This document shows, in pieces, positions 8,331 to 17,886 of a DNA stretch of 64,000 nt (within the stretch, counting starts at the first letter, position 1; each line of letters starts with the position of its first letter). The notes under the pieces are model-generated. The model was not told where the DNA came from, searched no databases, and worked only from the letters and a program-made list of their open reading frames with translations. The position numbers were made by a program, and so were the translations under genes. Source of the stretch: Methanobacteriota archaeon (lineage in GTDB: Archaea > Thermoplasmatota > Poseidoniia > Poseidoniales > Thalassarchaeaceae); NCBI GenBank assembly GCA_018650285.1, contig JABIGF010000019.1, positions 1-64,000 on the forward strand, written 5' to 3'.

Positions 8331-11300
8331 TCATTCTGTTTTTTTGACCGGATTGGCGCCCATAGGAGGCGGTGGGGCTGTAGGCAAGGGGGCAGCGCCT
8401 TTGGGAGGCGGTGGTGAACCAGCAGGCAACGGCGGAGCGCCCATTGGAGGCGGCGCCTGACCTAGTGGCTTTGGAGGGGCGAGTGGCCCAGGACCTGAGG
8501 CTGCCAATGCGGCAGTAATTTCAGCGGAACTTACGGAACCTGAAACCATTTCATCTTCTGTAACACCAGTGCTCAAAGCAGCATCTCGACGTTGGTCAAC
8601 ACTACCCATCATTGTTGAGCCTGGTGAAATAATGTGTTCACCTGAATCGAAAACTGTTGAGTTCTTTCGCAAGACTACAACTGCGCCAACTAACGCTGCT
8701 AGAATAAGTAGAGCCACTAGACCAACCGCCCAACTAGGTATACCGGCTGATTCCAAGGCTTGGAGAAGACCTCCACCATCGCCTGTTAGAGATGTAGAGG
8801 CAGCATGAATTTCGGCACTACCATTAATCAACTCAGTATTTTCAGTTGAAGTCGGTATCGCAGTAATCACAACATCCGAAGACCCAACTGCATCATCATT
8901 GACAATAATGACTTCAAAGACTTCAGATGCGCCAGCATCAAGATTCTGAATTGTTGACAAGCCAGTAACCAACCAACCAGATTCCACCACGACTTCAAAA
9001 TCTACTTTACACGCGGTATTACCATCATTTTGTACAGTCAAGTTGAGCGTTCTTTGCCCACCTTTCTCAACACGTTCAAAATCATCAATATCTGCTGAAA
9101 GTGAGAGCCATGCTGCATTCTTACCATGGAATAATACCGTAGCACTACGAACTAATTCTTCCCCTCCAGAAGTTGTACCTGTAACCAACAACGTAAGCGT
9201 ATCAGCAAGTAAGCCGGTAGGTGTACCTGGTGGCATCACCACAGAAATTTGAATACTTTCAGAACGATGAATACCCAATGCATCTGGCGGAGGTGTCTTG
9301 AAACCAACTTGCCAACCCTCAGGGACGCTGCCAAATTCCCACAAGAGTGAAAGTGGGACGTTTCCACTGTTTTGGATGGTAAAGGTACCATAAGTAGCAC
9401 TTCCCGGCGCAACAAATAATGTATCCAAATCAGGACCATTTAGTGTCAAGTCAGGGCGCTCTTCAACTTTGAGTTCAGTCCGATTCATGATGAAACGAGA
9501 AAGAGTGAATTGTGTCCGAATATTGATTGTATTTGCATCCCCATTAGATACTTCTTGAGGTACTTGAATCTCCACTTTGCAATCAACATCATCTCCTTCC
9601 TGCAATGTGATCGTCAATTCATTATCATCCACTTGAAGGCCACAGGTGAGAGCGAATGGCCATGTTGTCAAAGTGGGGGTGACTTTGACATTCAAGGTGA
9701 TAGGTACATTTCCAAGATTAGCCACATTCAGTGTCAAATTGAGGTTTTGTCCATTATCAACAGCCTCATCTAAAGCATTACCTGCAGCGCCAACAGGAGT
9801 GCCGCTTGAGGAATATAAATCCGTACCGAAATCCTCCAAAATAGCAACGGTTATCGTCGTAGAATCAACTTGCGAAAGTGATGGGTCTTCTGTATGTGAA
9901 GTCGTACAAGAAATTGATTCAACGACTCCAGCAGCAGGTTCACCGTCAGCCATTGACGGCACCGTTATTCGGACTGCGATTGATAGATATTGAAGGCGAG
10001 CTAGCGGTTCAAGAGTAATTGTTGAAGAATTACCATCACCAACTGAAATAGACCAGCGATTTGGTGTCTCACATGATACATTGTATACACTTGGAGAATT
10101 ACCTGGGTTCATGACTGAAACTGAGAAAGTTGCCTCTTCTCCCGGCTGAGCGGTCAAACCAGAAACTCCTGCAAGCGATGTGATCATTCCATCAACATCG
10201 TCAACAATAATTGTCAATCTTATTGTGTGAGATACGACTGGAGATGAGCGATACCATGCGGTCAAATCAACCACATATGTGCCCGGGAGCGCATACAGGG
10301 GATACGGTGTTGCTGAAAGGTCAGCAGTTTCATCTCTAATAATCAAATCAATGACGATTTCATTATTCCCGCTACCAATCGGTTGCAATTGGTATGATGG
10401 TGCTATTGAAAGGAATTTCAACCATGTATCTGATGGCGCATCTAGCATACCATCTGGCCGCAAATATTGAACAGGGGTGACGCGTAAATCTATGCTTTCA
10501 TTGCTTGTACCTTCGTTAGCAATCTTGAATCTATACAATACTTCATCTTCGGTAGCAGGGTCAATATGACGGATTTTCGCCGCATCTAATTCACTCTCCC
10601 CGACTGGTGGCACCCCAGCCTCAGTATACGGAGTAATCCGCACGCCAATCGCTGAAACATTAACTTGCAAATTGAATACATTGTTATTGACACCTGATGT
10701 GAAATCATTTGGTTCATCTATGACATCAAAGACATCGATAGTCAAACGTAAGTCATGGAATCCTGTGCTAGAAAAGGCGTGAGTGAAAACTATGGAATCA
10801 CTTGCGCCGCCTGACAAACCACTTTTTGTCACATTGTATAGAGTAACGCCAGTAGTTAAATCCTCAACTTTCACTTCATACGGCACAGTAGTTGCAGGCG
10901 CTTGGTTGACCCAATTTGCACCAACAATAAGAGTTTCAGACTCTAGGGGTTCTGACGCTGAAATCCACAAACTAGAGTCGACAACAGCCAAATCACTGAC
11001 CGGATTTGCATTCCCCATCGCAGTAATTACGACAGCGTAATTTTGAGTGTTTCCACCGGAATTAGAAATTTGTATAGTCCAATTTCCACTTTGAGTTGCA
11101 CCCATTTTAACCCTCTCAACATTGTTTAGTGAATCATAAGAACCACCAGTTGTTGAGAATCCATTGCTGAATACATTACCTTTGTAGGTCGTACCATCTG
11201 GAGCAGTAACAAGCATATCTAGGTCGTTAACAAGTCGCGCAGATGATTGACTACCAGAAGATGAACCCTCTCTATCATTCCAAACTAAAGTCACAGAGAT

Positions 11301-13163
11301 TCCATACGCACCATCAATACTGTAAGTATAGAGGTAAGAATATCCTGGTGTTAATGATTGGTCTTGGTCATAGAATGTATTGAGCGCTAATATGCCACTA
11401 GTTGGATATATGCTTCTTTGTAGGTCGATTTGCCCCCAACCCTCGTCTGCATTTGGAATATCTGAAGAACCTATATCTTTTGCACCATTGATGAGAATGG
11501 CTCGAATTAAATCGCTACGCGGTTGATTGAGATTCATCTGAGTACGGAGGAATTGACGGACTAGAACCGTTGCTCCCGCCGCCACTGGAGTGGCTGCTGA
11601 AGTTCCATCTGCCTTCATGTACATCGGGTCGTTGTTACCGTGGCGGGCATTTGAGCAAGAAGGCCCAGCGGGATACTGCGCTTCCTCAGCTCGTGCCGCA
11701 CAGATTTGTACACCTGGGGCGACTACATCGGGCTTAATACGACCATCTAGAGTATTTCCTCGGCTAGAAAATGATACGACTTGTCCTACTGTGTATATTC
11801 TACCAGTTGTTGAGGCTCCAACAGTCAAGACGTTTTTCGCAGTTGATGGCGGAGAGACTGTTGTCTGGCCTGATGCTCCATCGTTTCCTGCAGCGAACAA
11901 TACGGTGTAGTCACCATAATCATCCATGAAGGCGTCTGCAGATCTACTGTCAGAGGTATATTGCCCACCCATATTTTCAGCACCCCACGAATTACTGTGA
12001 ACACCTGCTGATTGCTGACGAGAATGGCGGAACATGTCGTAAAGTGAGCCCCAACGAGCGAGTTGCCCCGATTGGTCATGCTCCATCTGATAGAAGTGGA
12101 AGGTTGTGGCTGGCGCCATCCCTTGGTAAGTTGAATCCCCACTGCCGTCGCCAAGCATTATCCCAGCAACGTGAGTGCCATGGCCGGTGTTCATGTCAGC
12201 ACCAGAATTGTCGGGCCCGAAGTTGTTGTATATCGTCAATACACGACCGGTGAAATCCCCATGGTCAGCATCCAATCCTGAATCAGATATTGCTGCAACT
12301 TCGCCAGTACCATCTAAGCCACTGTTGTGATTATTGACTACTTGGTCTATTCTAACAATATCGCTTGCGTAATTGTTTGCAAGGGTCAAAATCGTGCGAG
12401 ATTCAGTAAATAATATCCTGCCATCATTCGCCAAGACCGCCATCCAAACAGGGTCAATGCCACGAACTTGACAAAGGTAAGCGTCACAACGAACTTCTTC
12501 TGCACCGGTTGATGCCAAGTCATTACGCAACTCTTCAATCTGAGGTGCAGATAAGTCGCCTGCAGGTGTGACATCAACATCAACCACTCCAACATTAACT
12601 CCATTTTGTGCATCTATTGATAATGTCATCAAATCAGGCTGAAGTCTCCAGCCAGGATGTTGAACTACGACTGAGCGAACGGTAGGGTGCCTGCTCAATT
12701 CTTGTAATGCCAAGAAGGCGTCTTGTGAATCTGCTGGAAGTCGAACAAGATAGGCAGAGTCAGGGATGTGATCAAGGTCTACTAAACCAAGAGCGACTAT
12801 CAAATTCTCAAATGCGGTATAATCATGAGTGTTAAGTTGAACAATCACAAAACGAGTATTGTCAATATCGAACTGGTCACGAAATTCCACAGGAGGCAAC
12901 GGTGGCTCATCACTCACTGGGTCAAAAGAGCCCAATACCGTATGGATTTGCCCAGACGAAGATTTGATTGGAACGGTTAAACCGCTCGATGGATTTGCCA
13001 CCGACCATTGCGTCGCTGCCTCCTCAGCAGTCCATTGAGGCGCCACATCCTCAAGTTGAATTGATTCTGTTGTTGCTTCTTGATGGCTTGTTGACACTAG
13101 CGTTGCCAGCGATGTTGTGAGCATCAGAAATACAAGCAAAGTTGGAAGTAGTGACTGACGCAT
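8331..13163 (-). CDS. Giant secreted, membrane-anchored subtilisin-like serine protease (S8)
   Basis: 1610 aa. An N-terminal signal peptide (residues 1-25, LLPTLLVFLMLTTSLATLV) is followed by a propeptide-like region (about 90-170). The S8 catalytic domain has Asp in AISDSGLDADHGDF (about 290), His in GHGTHVAGIML (about 331), the oxyanion Asn in HSNSWGAEN (about 391) and Ser in GTSAATPVAAG (about 522). After a P-domain-like beta region (about 600-720), several CARDB/NEW3-type Ig-like repeats follow (about 730-1450), each with NxGNxP signatures. A single transmembrane helix (WAVGLVALLILAALVGAVVVL, about 1470-1492) precedes a proline/glycine-rich cytoplasmic tail (PPPPMGA-type repeats). It probably degrades external protein while tethered to the cell. 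All catalytic residues are intact. Confidence 0.95.
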   Translation of the reverse strand: MRQSLLPTLLVFLMLTTSLATLVSTSHQEATTESIQLEDVAPQWTAEEAATQWSVANPSSGLTVPIKSSSGQIHTVLGSFDPVSDEPPLPPVEFRDQFDIDNTRFVIVQLNTHDYTAFENLIVALGLVDLDHIPDSAYLVRLPADSQDAFLALQELSRHPTVRSVVVQHPGWRLQPDLMTLSIDAQNGVNVGVVDVDVTPAGDLSAPQIEELRNDLASTGAEEVRCDAYLCQVRGIDPVWMAVLANDGRILFTESRTILTLANNYASDIVRIDQVVNNHNSGLDGTGEVAAISDSGLDADHGDFTGRVLTIYNNFGPDNSGADMNTGHGTHVAGIMLGDGSGDSTYQGMAPATTFHFYQMEHDQSGQLARWGSLYDMFRHSRQQSAGVHSNSWGAENMGGQYTSDSRSADAFMDDYGDYTVLFAAGNDGASGQTTVSPPSTAKNVLTVGASTTGRIYTVGQVVSFSSRGNTLDGRIKPDVVAPGVQICAARAEEAQYPAGPSCSNARHGNNDPMYMKADGTSAATPVAAGATVLVRQFLRTQMNLNQPRSDLIRAILINGAKDIGSSDIPNADEGWGQIDLQRSIYPTSGILALNTFYDQDQSLTPGYSYLYTYSIDGAYGISVTLVWNDREGSSSGSQSSARLVNDLDMLVTAPDGTTYKGNVFSNGFSTTGGSYDSLNNVERVKMGATQSGNWTIQISNSGGNTQNYAVVITAMGNANPVSDLAVVDSSLWISASEPLESETLIVGANWVNQAPATTVPYEVKVEDLTTGVTLYNVTKSGLSGGASDSIVFTHAFSSTGFHDLRLTIDVFDVIDEPNDFTSGVNNNVFNLQVNVSAIGVRITPYTEAGVPPVGESELDAAKIRHIDPATEDEVLYRFKIANEGTSNESIDLRVTPVQYLRPDGMLDAPSDTWLKFLSIAPSYQLQPIGSGNNEIVIDLIIRDETADLSATPYPLYALPGTYVVDLTAWYRSSPVVSHTIRLTIIVDDVDGMITSLAGVSGLTAQPGEEATFSVSVMNPGNSPSVYNVSCETPNRWSISVGDGNSSTITLEPLARLQYLSIAVRITVPSMADGEPAAGVVESISCTTSHTEDPSLSQVDSTTITVAILEDFGTDLYSSSGTPVGAAGNALDEAVDNGQNLNLTLNVANLGNVPITLNVKVTPTLTTWPFALTCGLQVDDNELTITLQEGDDVDCKVEIQVPQEVSNGDANTINIRTQFTLSRFIMNRTELKVEERPDLTLNGPDLDTLFVAPGSATYGTFTIQNSGNVPLSLLWEFGSVPEGWQVGFKTPPPDALGIHRSESIQISVVMPPGTPTGLLADTLTLLVTGTTSGGEELVRSATVLFHGKNAAWLSLSADIDDFERVEKGGQRTLNLTVQNDGNTACKVDFEVVVESGWLVTGLSTIQNLDAGASEVFEVIIVNDDAVGSSDVVITAIPTSTENTELINGSAEIHAASTSLTGDGGGLLQALESAGIPSWAVGLVALLILAALVGAVVVLRKNSTVFDSGEHIISPGSTMMGSVDQRRDAALSTGVTEDEMVSGSVSSAEITAALAASGPGPLAPPKPLGQAPPPMGAPPLPAGSPPPPKGAAPLPTAPPPPMGANPVKKTE

Positions 13164-13281: not shown

Positions 13282-14322
13282 TCACAAATTGTAGTATTTT
13301 CCTATCGCCGCATCGGTCTTTGCAACCGATGCTCGCCAATCCGATTCAACACCCAACAAAGCACGGATACAATCGACATTCTCTGGGATAACATCTGACT
13401 CCTGATGAATTGCTTGGAAATAATAGAGTCTGTCGCCTTGCAAACTCACACCATCTTCCCACACAAAAATCTCGTGCAAATCGCCCCACTTACGGCCGAT
13501 ATCCCTAGCCATTTCCATTACTTCGGCAGTAGTTGTAATTCGGTTATCAGCCCCATGCATGACGATAACTCTTGGAGTCTCTTTCCACATCTCAATAATG
13601 CTTTCAGTAGTAAGGCCGTGACCGGCTGGTAAATCAGCAACAATTGCATGAGTATGCATAATGGTTGTTGGCACTGCAACAGCCAATGAATTGATTTCAA
13701 TCTCAGGCTTGACTGTCATCACATCAGGACCGTGGTGACTAGGTACTTTGAGTACAGGTTTAATCGCATTTATTGGGCCTTTATTTGAGTCACCAGGGTC
13801 GGCAGCACGACGAATCATTGTACACTCAACCTTCAATGAACCACAATGCTCGTAAAGTGGCACAAGTGTACGGGAAAGACCTGTTGTATTGCACGAAACA
13901 ACCCGTGTACCCTCGACATTGAGGTTTTCAGCATGGTTCGCTGAACTAGTGTAAGAACGGCCTGTGAGTGCGTGTTTTTCGCCACCTTGAAACAAATATT
14001 TCACTCCGGCGGCTTGGTATTTTGCTAGATTTTCTGCACCCATTTTCCCGGGTGAACAATCGACAACAACATCGGCAATAGCCAATAGGTCAGATAAGCC
14101 CCCTGAACAGACATAATCTTGTTCAGCAAAACGGGCAATTCTGTCTGCATCGTCAAAGGTACAGTAGAGTGGGAAACCCTTCTTCACGGCTAAATCACAA
14201 CCGAAAGATGGGCCTGTCTTTGTCACACCAACAATTTCCATATCATCTTGAGCGTCTACAGCATCTGCAACACGCTTTCCAATCGTTCCAAATCCATTTA
14301 TTGCGACCTTGATTATTGACAT
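13282..14322 (-). CDS. gap: Glyceraldehyde-3-phosphate dehydrogenase, type II (archaeal)
   Basis: 346 aa from the ATG at 14322. The NAD(P)-binding N-terminus is IKVAINGFGTIGKRVADAV, and the catalytic cysteine sits in VVSCNTTGLSRTL (about residue 140). IRRAADPGDSNKGPINAI and PEIEINSLAV are typical of archaeal GapII. It oxidises glyceraldehyde-3-phosphate, or works in the reverse gluconeogenic direction with NADP(H)/NAD(H). A 20-residue longer frame exists but adds non-conserved sequence; MSIIKVAINGFG is the family start. It is a single gene reading away from the divergent GltB-like gene, with about 215 bases between them for two promoters. Confidence 0.96.
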   Translation of the reverse strand: MSIIKVAINGFGTIGKRVADAVDAQDDMEIVGVTKTGPSFGCDLAVKKGFPLYCTFDDADRIARFAEQDYVCSGGLSDLLAIADVVVDCSPGKMGAENLAKYQAAGVKYLFQGGEKHALTGRSYTSSANHAENLNVEGTRVVSCNTTGLSRTLVPLYEHCGSLKVECTMIRRAADPGDSNKGPINAIKPVLKVPSHHGPDVMTVKPEIEINSLAVAVPTTIMHTHAIVADLPAGHGLTTESIIEMWKETPRVIVMHGADNRITTTAEVMEMARDIGRKWGDLHEIFVWEDGVSLQGDRLYYFQAIHQESDVIPENVDCIRALLGVESDWRASVAKTDAAIGKYYNL

Positions 14323-14537
14323 CCGCTGACCACACATACCGTTGCCGGTAATCTGCTGCGATAGCAAACCGCCTATGAACATAGCCTATGGCTAATATCC
14401 AATAGTGATATCAGTAAAAATCAGCCAAAACACAACACCTAGAGAAAAGATAAGACCTCAAAATATGGCTATTTAGTATACTTTCTTTGCGTCAGCATCA
14501 AGAACAAGTGCTCGCGCAAGGGGGTTGAGGTAGTACC

Positions 14538-16112
14538 ATGCGAGAGATGGTTGAGAAGAGCATACAATTGAATCGGGAACTCTCATCTCTATTGGTAAGA
14601 GCACTTGAATCAAACAAGGCAATCAAGATTGGCTGGGGTAAGGGCAATGACCCAAAACCCCGCAATGGAGAGATGGGAGTAGCATCCCATCTACCTGTAG
14701 GGGCGCGTGTCCGCTTGCTTGGAGACATTGGTGATTTAGCTGCTATTTGTGCCACTGGAGGAAATTTCACACTTGAAGGTGAATCTGGTGGTTGGTTTGG
14801 TGCATGGAATAGAGGTGCTAAACTAGTCGTAGAAAAAGAGTGTGGCGCTCGTATTGGCTTGAAAATGGAAGATGGCCAGATTGTATGTCACGGCTCTGCT
14901 GGAGCAGAGGCTGGTGCTGGAATGTCTGGCGGATTAATTGTAGTCCGAGGTTCTGCTGGAAAGCGGGCTGGAGCAGGGATGAAAGGAGGTTTACTCATCA
15001 TCATGGGTGATGCTGCATCAGACATTGGTACAAATATGCAAGGTGGAGAAATCATCGTCAACGGACGCTGCCCACCACCAGGCGAAGGTGCAGAAAGTAT
15101 TCCACTAAGCAGCAAACGATTCGCAGAAATCAATGAGATACTATCAGAACACAATTTCAAAATTGACTCTGATGCTGCTGTCATAGTCTCAGATTCAGAA
15201 CACCCCACGGTAGTTCAAACACCAACCAAGGGAATTGACTCGCAATATGAATCAATCACTATGGTCTCAGCAGGAAATCCTAGGCTCCATGACCACGCTC
15301 CTCTAGATTTGTTAACCCTCGTACCACTAAGAGGGCAAGAAAAGGGAATGCTACTACCATTGCCAATTATCCCAATAGTCGATAGTGGCAAAGGCCTTGT
15401 TGGTGACTTCCTTAATCGCCAACCCTGTATGGTAAACTCAAAACCTAGGTCAATTGATCTACTACGAATTACAGAATCAAATATTCATACCTGCACCGAT
15501 GACCTTGACGATGCGGCTGGTGTAGTCATCTGTCTTGAAGAACTTCCACGCATGAATGATGCTGAATTAGATGCGTTGATTTCGTTGCTGAAATCTAGAC
15601 TTGCTGATGAAAAATTCGTGCTACTTGGCGGCGGAGTTGACCGAATATCTCTGATTCACCGTCTTGCTGCCGCACTCGACTGCGATGGTGCGATTGCTAA
15701 TGCTGCCACTGCAGCAAACCTTCCTGCTTGTGCAACCTTACCAATGGTTGGACTCTCTGCAAGAGAACATCAATTAACTCGAAAAGGTGTTTCACAAGGA
15801 GTTGTTATTTCTTGGGCTGCTGACGCTAGTGACGCTCTAATTACCGCAGCAGCGGGTGCTCAATTCATCGTATCAAATCCATTTGCTAATAGTGAAGTGC
15901 CAAAAACCAGCAAAGCAATAACTGCTGCAATCGAGGATTGGCTTGCTAACATAGATGCTGAGATTCGTGGCCATCTAATTGAAATCGGTGAAGATGGAAT
16001 TGACCAACTTAACCGCCGACATCTTAGAGCACTAGACTCTGATACAGCAAATATGACTGGCATCCGTCTAGCAGGATATGACAGACCAATGCCACAATGG
16101 CTTGGACAGTGA
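14538..16112 (+). CDS. GXGXG beta-helix (GltB3-like) fused to a degenerate GltB2-like domain
   Basis: 524 aa. Residues about 55-215 form a GXGXG beta-helix with repeated G-rich turns (GDIGDLAAICATGGNFTLEG, EAGAGMSGGLIVVRG, RAGAGMKGGLLIIMG, DIGTNMQGGEIIVNG), as in the C-terminal domain of glutamate synthase large subunit or FwdC. Residues about 240-524 are alpha/beta with a C-terminus (ALITAAAGAQFIVSNPF, then HLRALDSDTANMTGIRLAGYD) resembling the tail of the FMN-binding GltB2 domain. The family Cys-rich FeS motif (CPVGI) is absent and the domain order is the reverse of ordinary glutamate synthase. Function unknown; a role in glutamate metabolism or as a scaffold is inference. GAGGT lies 11 bases before the ATG. 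Confidence 0.7.
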   Translation: MREMVEKSIQLNRELSSLLVRALESNKAIKIGWGKGNDPKPRNGEMGVASHLPVGARVRLLGDIGDLAAICATGGNFTLEGESGGWFGAWNRGAKLVVEKECGARIGLKMEDGQIVCHGSAGAEAGAGMSGGLIVVRGSAGKRAGAGMKGGLLIIMGDAASDIGTNMQGGEIIVNGRCPPPGEGAESIPLSSKRFAEINEILSEHNFKIDSDAAVIVSDSEHPTVVQTPTKGIDSQYESITMVSAGNPRLHDHAPLDLLTLVPLRGQEKGMLLPLPIIPIVDSGKGLVGDFLNRQPCMVNSKPRSIDLLRITESNIHTCTDDLDDAAGVVICLEELPRMNDAELDALISLLKSRLADEKFVLLGGGVDRISLIHRLAAALDCDGAIANAATAANLPACATLPMVGLSAREHQLTRKGVSQGVVISWAADASDALITAAAGAQFIVSNPFANSEVPKTSKAITAAIEDWLANIDAEIRGHLIEIGEDGIDQLNRRHLRALDSDTANMTGIRLAGYDRPMPQWLGQ

Positions 16113-16125
16113 AGGGGGAAGCGGG

Positions 16126-17886
16126 ATGCCAACCGTCAAATTTGAACACGATGTTCTAAAAATTATCCAACTAGGTGGAGATGTTACTCACGACCCTAAA
16201 CTTTGGAATGACCATCTCAGCCAGATAGGATGCGTCGTTGAAGAATGCAATGAAGAAAGCGTTGAAATTGAGGTCTTTCCTGACCGACCTGACCTACTCA
16301 GTGCTGAAACCATGGCTTATGCAGCAAGGACCTTCTTGCATGGGAAGGCGGCACAACCTGAATTGCCCGTTACAAGTGGTAGTATCACTATGGCAGTTGA
16401 CCCCTCTTTGGAAAATGTACGCCCAATCATCTACGGAGCGGTTGTTCGTGGAGTTGACCAAGGGCACACAGCAGAGGCTAGAGATAACTTCATCCAGGGT
16501 TTGATGGACCATCAAGAAAAACTCCATTTCGCCCTTGGGCGAGGGAGAAAACGGTCATCGATTGGAGTGCACGACCTATCAAGACTCAAACCTCCTTTTA
16601 GAGTGATTACTGTTGATTCCAAATACAAATTCACACCTCTAGCAATGGTGGAAAAAATGAGTATTGAAGAGATTCTTACAAGCCATCCAAAAGGTGTTGA
16701 TTATGCACACCTACTAGATGGATTTGATAGATTCCCAGTAATTCTTGACGCTTCAGAAGATGTCATATCTTTCCCTCCAATAATTAACGGAGCACATACG
16801 ACAGTGACTGAAAACACCACCGATTTCTTCATTGATGTAACGGGTTGGGACCAACGTTCTTGTGAATCATCACTGCTTCTAGTATGCCTATCTCTTGCCC
16901 TTCACGGTGGAACTGTTGAAAGTATTGAATTGACTGATTGGCAAGGTAATACTACTACCTGCCCGAATGGGTCTGCGCAGACACATTCACTACCTCAAGT
17001 TCTTCTTGAAGATGTTCTTGGGCGACAATTTAGTGACAGTGAGGTTGCTGAAGCGATAAATCGCATGGGTGGTAAATTACTACGCCGTCGCGTCATTACT
17101 GATGGACCACGTACACGTGAACGTTGGGCTGATGGGGCAGCGGGTAGCGATGAATATCTAATTGAAATGCCCCGCTGGCGAGCTGATATCTTGCATCCAA
17201 TTGATTTGGTTGAAGAGGTTGCTACTGGGATTGGATTTGAAGACTTAGGTGTTGCAACATCAACACAAAGCATTGCTGGGAAACCGCTGACGAAAATGAC
17301 ACTAAACCGCAGAATTAGAGAATGCATGCAAGGCTGTGGGATGCAACAGATTCAATCACTAACGCTTTCAAACGAAAGTGATCAATTCACCAAAATGAGA
17401 AATGCAACCAAGGGCGATGTTACTCAATTGCATAATCCGATTACAACTGAGCACACGATAATGAGACAATATCTTCTACCAAGTTTACTCAGACTTTTAG
17501 CAGCAAATCGCCATCATGAATTACCTCAAAGAGTGTATGAGATGGGTACTGTCGTGCACGACCATCACAACCGAGATAGAGTCGCTTGGGCATGTGCCGA
17601 AGTTGGCACCGGATTTACCGGAGCCAAAGGAATTGCCGAAGCACTACTTCGTGACTTGGGTGCTGTCAGTGAAAATTTGGATGTGACTTACCGAGCCACT
17701 AAAGATGGACGCGGACCGTGGCTAACTGGCCGTGGTGCCGAAGTCAGAATTTCAGGAGAGTTAGTTGGCACAATTGGTGAAATCGACCCTGCTGTTGCCG
17801 ATTTATTCGAGTTGCGAGTTCCTATTCAGGCGGGAGAATTCAATGTGGAGAAATTGAATAAACTCATCTCGGACCCTGTCCATTAA
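16126..17886 (+). CDS. pheT: Phenylalanyl-tRNA synthetase beta subunit (archaeal/eukaryal type)
   Basis: 586 aa, the size of archaeal PheT. The N-terminal segment VEIEVFPDRPDLLSAETMAYA and the FIQGLMDHQEKLHFALGRGRKRSSIGVHDL region correspond to the B3/B4 domain start. The B5 domain contains EMPRWRADILHPIDLVEEVA, and the C-terminal catalytic-like domain carries LHNPITTEHTIMRQYLLPSL. It forms an alpha2-beta2 enzyme with PheS, which is not in this window, to charge tRNA-Phe. The start at 16126 follows GGGGGAAGCGGG and begins just downstream of the previous gene's stop (gap of 13 bases), so the two may be co-transcribed. A longer frame into the upstream gene is rejected. Its stop abuts the convergent small gene without a spacer. 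Confidence 0.96.
   Translation: MPTVKFEHDVLKIIQLGGDVTHDPKLWNDHLSQIGCVVEECNEESVEIEVFPDRPDLLSAETMAYAARTFLHGKAAQPELPVTSGSITMAVDPSLENVRPIIYGAVVRGVDQGHTAEARDNFIQGLMDHQEKLHFALGRGRKRSSIGVHDLSRLKPPFRVITVDSKYKFTPLAMVEKMSIEEILTSHPKGVDYAHLLDGFDRFPVILDASEDVISFPPIINGAHTTVTENTTDFFIDVTGWDQRSCESSLLLVCLSLALHGGTVESIELTDWQGNTTTCPNGSAQTHSLPQVLLEDVLGRQFSDSEVAEAINRMGGKLLRRRVITDGPRTRERWADGAAGSDEYLIEMPRWRADILHPIDLVEEVATGIGFEDLGVATSTQSIAGKPLTKMTLNRRIRECMQGCGMQQIQSLTLSNESDQFTKMRNATKGDVTQLHNPITTEHTIMRQYLLPSLLRLLAANRHHELPQRVYEMGTVVHDHHNRDRVAWACAEVGTGFTGAKGIAEALLRDLGAVSENLDVTYRATKDGRGPWLTGRGAEVRISGELVGTIGEIDPAVADLFELRVPIQAGEFNVEKLNKLISDPVH

Follow-up and report, generated by a model that had tools for sequence, protein, structure and literature searches.

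A fused gene between gap and pheT

The window examined in this study is a 64,000-nucleotide stretch of contig JABIGF010000019.1 (forward strand, positions 1 to 64,000) from an archaeal genome assembly assigned to the order Poseidoniales. It carries an open reading frame for a protein composed of a GXGXG beta-helix, an eroded GltB2-like region and a conserved tail, and this gene is situated between pheT and a divergently oriented gap gene (Table 1). The same setting was observed in 24/24 order loci examined, a sample of loci with long flanks taken from 57 matches. Beyond gap, the minus strand of the window (8331-13163) encodes a very large protein that looks subtilase-like by eye, and its gene likewise adjoins gap in 24/24 loci.

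Table 1. Features of the window at and around the fused gene
Feature	Position	Strand	Basis
Glyceraldehyde-3-phosphate dehydrogenase gene (gap), divergent upstream neighbor	13282..14382	-	PF02800
Open reading frame of the fusion of GXGXG with an eroded GltB2-like region, 524 aa	14538..16112	+	ATG at 14538; stop ends at 16112
N-terminal helix and GXGXG beta-helix, residues 8-223	14559..15206	+	PF01493, FwdC model, VIA-align
Eroded GltB2-like beta/alpha barrel region, residues 224-480	15207..15977	+	hhalign, motif counts; loss of FMN and FeS signatures
Conserved C-terminal tail, residues 481-522	15978..16103	+	Common to split GltB2-like proteins (alignments)
pheT, next gene, 13 bases downstream	16126..17886	+	PF17759, PF03484, PF03483; start codon inferred

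The N-terminal half is a GXGXG beta-helix

The Pfam model for GXGXG domains (PF01493) matches residues 64-136 (E = 1.2e-11; 44.9 bits versus a gathering cut-off of 32.5), and the domain is therefore not located at the C-terminus as it is in GltB. An AF2 model of the window protein has low confidence overall (mean pLDDT of 48) and reaches about 80 at residues 110-210. When residues 8-223 of this model were compared using VIA-align with the C-terminal domain of a glutamate synthase (6s6s_A 1209-1464), 202 residues were aligned with a Z score of 17.2 and an rmsd of 4.1, and the score obtained with FwdC/FhcC was slightly lower.

The likeness to FwdC raises the question of whether the protein is part of a complex resembling formylmethanofuran dehydrogenase (FwdC/FhcC), in which its GXGXG half would serve as FwdC. 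A phmmer search of PDB sequences with the window protein returned FwdC chains as the best matches to the N-terminal half and glutamate synthases only weakly, and the NCBIfam model for FwdC (TIGR03122) aligns with residues 60-181 (E = 7.6e-20). However, the resulting 71.2 bits are far under the cut-off of 130.65 for this model, which led us to reject FwdC membership. Furthermore, the GXGXG domains of FwdC and GltS are alike by structural score (Z 13.5-17 with the window model as query), and a C-terminal half derived from GltB2 also speaks against such a complex. We consider this explanation very improbable.

The C-terminal half is probably derived from GltB2

At E values up to 1, PF01493 is the sole Pfam match in the window protein. 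The C-terminal half has no match to any family, including PF01645 (the FMN synthase domain), and an N-terminal glutamine amidotransferase domain was likewise not found by Pfam. Profile comparisons were based on an alignment of the window family (A1) with 52 rows from 57 matches. Those left out were L001, which is the window itself, L010, which has an internal TGA, and L032, L034 and L037, which are near-copies of retained rows.

Using hhalign, A1 was found to match GltB2-like proteins that relatives encode in a gene of their own (98.4%, E = 9.9e-15) over the last 170 columns at the C-terminal end, a stretch for which the tail (consensus LRALDxDTAAISGLRLxGYDRPLPMW) accounts in large part. Fusions from outside the class are matched over 485 columns, or nearly the whole length (100%, E = 5.4e-41), and comparison with the profile of the sister family gave 99.9% (E = 1.1e-36). 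The synthase (FMN) domain of solved glutamate synthases is matched by the split GltB2-like proteins (E = 5e-44) and by the fusions (E of about 3e-13). Judged by these profile comparisons, the C-terminal half of the window protein is in all probability GltB2-derived. The two AF2 runs with 7 rows each gave pLDDT values mostly below 50 for this half, which is too low to confirm its fold. Residues 304-391 resemble response-regulator-like folds in most VIA rows (Z of about 6), and this was not read as homology.

Signatures for FMN and iron-sulfur binding have eroded

Sequence signatures were counted after residue 180 in the 52 window-family rows using loose patterns. A GEGG-like motif is present in 1 row, and the MSxG, GGTGA and phosphate motifs are present in 0, whereas the same script applied to five split genes detected 4 GEGG-like, 2 MSxG, 1 GGTGA and 4 phosphate motifs. 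A close Cys pair appears in 3/52 rows and in 4 of the split genes, and inspection by eye indicates that the position-specific cysteines of the GltB FeS motif have been lost from the window family. The tail pattern and the P-x-W end were counted in 51 and 50 rows of the window family and in 3 and 4 of the split genes, respectively. QxxxGRxG-like and GAKPG-like sequences occur in 10/52 and 2/52 rows, part of them by chance.

The original prediction had described an N-terminal GXGXG beta-helix, a tail resembling GltB2, and the lack of both the FeS cysteine motif and a clear FMN site. The first agrees with a PF01493 match far beyond chance and with the alignment of the model to the GltS beta-helix, the second with the profile comparison, and the third extends from the window to nearly all 52 orthologs.

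Could the protein still be a flavoenzyme whose FMN site has changed greatly, such as an ammonia-dependent glutamate synthase or a related enzyme? Parts of the FMN site are retained in some relatives. Moreover, the operon that contains the GltB2-like gene in L086 also encodes electron carriers resembling HdrA/FlpD and FrhB, and the fusion in L092 follows electron-transfer genes. Against this idea, nearly all 52 rows lack the phosphate-loop glycines, GEGG, GGTGA and the FeS cysteines, and no flavin barrel of any kind is matched in Pfam. We therefore view a surviving flavoenzyme as improbable.

Domain order reflects the order of a split gene pair

In each of the nine genomes of the phylum that encode the two halves in separate frames of a single contig (G119, G120, G130, G133, G139, G147, G177, G184 and G249), the GXGXG gene is upstream of the GltB2-like gene. 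Because relatives encode these proteins as adjacent genes in this order, the “reversed domain order” of the original prediction corresponds to the gene order of the split pair, fused into one frame. The description thus stands insofar as GXGXG comes first and the GltB2-like part after it. The protein is not a permuted GltB, a possibility we rejected because the 9/9 split pairs have the same order and less eroded fusions exist.

Both halves are present in one frame in nine genomes outside the order (G117, G125, G134, G152, G180, G182, G192, G241 and G246). Five of these genomes represent the sister family. A further fusion, in G383, came from a later search. The fusions in G180, G152 and G383 have better preserved synthase barrels. 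At the level of individual loci, PF01645 matches strongly in the tail-bearing genes of L077, L078, L079, L081 and L086 (E from 1.9e-44 to 1.4e-108). Among fusions from outside the class (L083, L092, L093 and L094), the match is strong in L083 (E = 1.6e-48), weaker in L094 (E = 5.2e-11) and marginal in L092 (E = 0.028). The sister-family fusions are those of L075, L076, L080, L084 and L087, and PF01645 had no match in L076, L080, L084 or L090. An N-terminal extension of 260 aa in L080 is an apparent read-through in frame of the adjacent polyprenyl synthetase gene, and it was trimmed from the A4 alignment.

A tree was built from 32 rows, comprising 16 from the order, 5 from the sister family, 4 other fusions and 7 split pairs that were artificially joined. 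The order and the sister family are each set apart by a fully supported branch, yet they are not joined on one branch, and the remaining fusions fall into more than one group (2 changes). This topology would be compatible with multiple fusion events or with a later split, each of which is possible. Because the tree is midpoint-rooted and the letter make-up of the sequences is uneven, we do not use it to count fusion events.

A near-universal gene under purifying selection

Poseidoniales correspond to Marine Group II, an abundant and uncultured lineage of marine archaea. The gene has a match in 114/115 genomes of the order (E up to 0.001), including 30/30 of those with completeness of 90% or more and contamination of 5% or less. 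G067 is the sole order genome without a match, and since pheT is also not matched there, the absence of the gene may be an assembly gap. Across the class, 141/145 genomes match the sister-family profile (E up to 1e-10). The four misses are G060, where the order search found the gene in two pieces, G067, G290, which is matched by another profile, and G272, which is 65% complete. In the phylum, 96/194 genomes match the 52-row profile (E up to 1e-4), and outside the class many of these matches fall on GXGXG domains in other proteins. One scan of assembled genome contigs returned close relatives alone, among them entries named as Candidatus Poseidoniales and Thalassarchaeaceae, which places the window in Marine Group II. 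No relative was found in the viral contigs searched. A literature search of titles and abstract openings returned nothing on this protein.

The gene is under purifying selection. Whole-gene dN/dS (NG86) is 0.05-0.09 for pairs with computable dS, with pairs involving L035 being saturated. By part, the values are 0.07-0.14 for the barrel region where computed, 0.03-0.06 for the beta-helix and 0-0.03 for the tail, which is the most strictly constrained. Conservation and dN/dS together rule out a pseudogene or a chance reading frame. Averaged over 20-residue blocks, majority identity reaches 0.80 at residues 501-520, compared with 0.58-0.70 for the beta-helix and 0.30-0.57 for most of the barrel region.

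Five residues (D307, R493, R497, R510 and W521) are invariant in 52/52 rows, and seven more Asp and Arg residues (D212, D257, R304, R369, D383, D432 and R516) are conserved in 46-50 of 52. This pattern is consistent with a barrel that was repurposed after FMN was lost, where invariant Asp and Arg residues would form a new ligand or catalytic site in an enzyme or a sensor of a small anionic metabolite. However, interfaces also conserve charges, and by eye the sister family and the split genes do not conserve most of these residues, except for the tail R497 and the tail Trp.

Gene neighborhoods differ between lineages

The gap/pheT setting is specific to the order, and neighbors are not kept across lineages. 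In the sister family, a polyprenyl synthetase gene adjoins the fusion and 5/5 loci share a neighbor cluster, which was annotated with Pfam on L076 only. Elsewhere, genes for aromatic amino acid lyases (histidine ammonia-lyase-like) adjoin the tail-bearing gene in three loci (L094:2547-4199, L088:4764-5934 and L108:1127-2734). Lyase genes occur widely across the order (34/40 genomes), and the copy in the genome studied here is on contig C20 rather than on the window contig. Aminotransferase genes are beside the relatives in L086 and L088, and a glutamine synthetase gene is beside that in L092.

In L086 (3967-10884), HdrA/FlpD-like, FrhB-like, GXGXG and intact-looking GltB2-like genes occur in a row. 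The last of these encodes a protein whose N-terminus is ferredoxin-like. Within the stretch read, no amidotransferase was seen. The fusion in L092, which is itself eroded, comes after electron-transfer genes that include an FAD/NAD-binding reductase.

We treat all of these neighbors of relatives, from the lyase, aminotransferase and glutamine synthetase genes to the HdrA/FlpD-like and FrhB-like genes, only as leads. The first three make an ancestral role in amino-acid or nitrogen metabolism plausible, and in this respect they favor the new ligand site described above, but their differences between lineages weaken the argument. On balance, a repurposed barrel seems rather unlikely to us, and it is nevertheless the main rival to the scaffold or regulator reading developed below.

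Other glutamate synthase genes in the genome

GltB1, whose presence in this genome had been raised as a question, occurs on contig C10 in an ordinary-looking GltB1-GltB3/GltB2 operon. In this row of genes, one encodes a protein with GATase_6 and GXGXG, and the other two encode PF01645 proteins, one of them intact (297.8 bits) and one matching only weakly (20.2 bits). The last of these (L105:1553-3106) is a degenerate GltB2-like protein scoring just below the cut-off of 20.4, and its gene directly precedes those for intact GltB2 and GATase_6-GXGXG. It thus appears to be another eroded paralog next to an active-looking one.

Among 40 order genomes, the window protein is present in all 40 and strong PF01645 matches (more than 270 bits) are present in 11. 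Therefore, an intact GltB2 is in general no requirement for the window protein, and dependence on such a protein in the same cell was rejected for most genomes. PF00310 is matched in 0/40 order genomes, and the GltB1-GltB3 protein on C10 matches GATase_6 instead.

A possible origin and function

We think it probable, with some reservation, that this protein is a pseudo-enzyme that arose from an archaeal GltB3-GltB2 module and now acts as a scaffold or regulator. The ancestor would have been a module of two genes, in which a GltB3-like GXGXG gene preceded one for a GltB2-like FMN barrel ending in the characteristic C-terminal tail, and these two genes would then have become one. In the class of this genome, made up of Poseidoniales/Marine Group II and the sister family, the barrel has lost the FMN-phosphate glycines, GEGG, GGTGA and the FeS cysteines. 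Given the loss of these signatures, the making of glutamate or the carriage of electrons by flavin is no longer expected. The beta-helix may have remained as a rigid core, on which the tail could pack as a contact element, unless it packs on a partner. Retention of the beta-helix and the tail is as expected for a structural or regulatory subunit. We infer from this pattern that the protein lacks flavin, has a noncatalytic role and acts with a partner.

The original prediction had offered two directions for function. Its repurposed or scaffold role is the likely one, given that the FMN and FeS signatures are lost and the beta-helix and tail are retained. Its new flavin or ammonia-channel enzyme finds no support in the sequence, as flavin signatures and an amidotransferase domain are both absent. 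A more speculative and decidedly doubtful scenario is that of a class-wide core protein whose former flavin barrel, set on the beta-helix as a platform, became a novel site for sensing or catalysis and perhaps links the status of amino acids to the pheT operon.

Regardless of its precise role, this is a near-universal gene of a marine archaeal lineage that is under purifying selection yet diverges fast, and more than half of its length belongs to no Pfam family. Intermediates in neighboring lineages trace stepwise a route by which a flavoenzyme encoded by two genes could have turned into one protein whose barrel is eroded, and they make the question of a pseudo-enzyme directly testable.

Comparison with known systems

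Both domains of the window protein share descent with the GXGXG domain and FMN barrel of the glutamate synthase large subunit (GltB/GltS alpha; PDB 6s6s, 1ofd and 7mfm). The window protein differs from GltB in its opposite domain order and in having no amidotransferase, no PF01645 match and no FMN or FeS signatures; as far as its sequence can tell, the signatures for a bound FMN are missing from its barrel. With FwdC/FhcC it has the GXGXG beta-helix in common, but it scores below the cut-off for that family, and to our knowledge FwdC has no GltB2-like half.

The split pairs in L077, L078, L079, L081 and L086 are closer in organization. Their adjacent genes each correspond to one half of the window protein, with the same gene order and the same C-terminal tail. 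They differ in producing separate proteins, several of which have strong PF01645 matches and still carry a good part of the motifs of a flavin barrel. Fusions from outside the class and from the sister family are full-length relatives with the same architecture, although their neighbors differ and those in L083 and L094 are less eroded than the window protein, as judged by their matches to PF01645. With its tail and its arrangement of GXGXG followed by a barrel, the window protein fits the tail-bearing GXGXG/GltB2-like family of the phylum.
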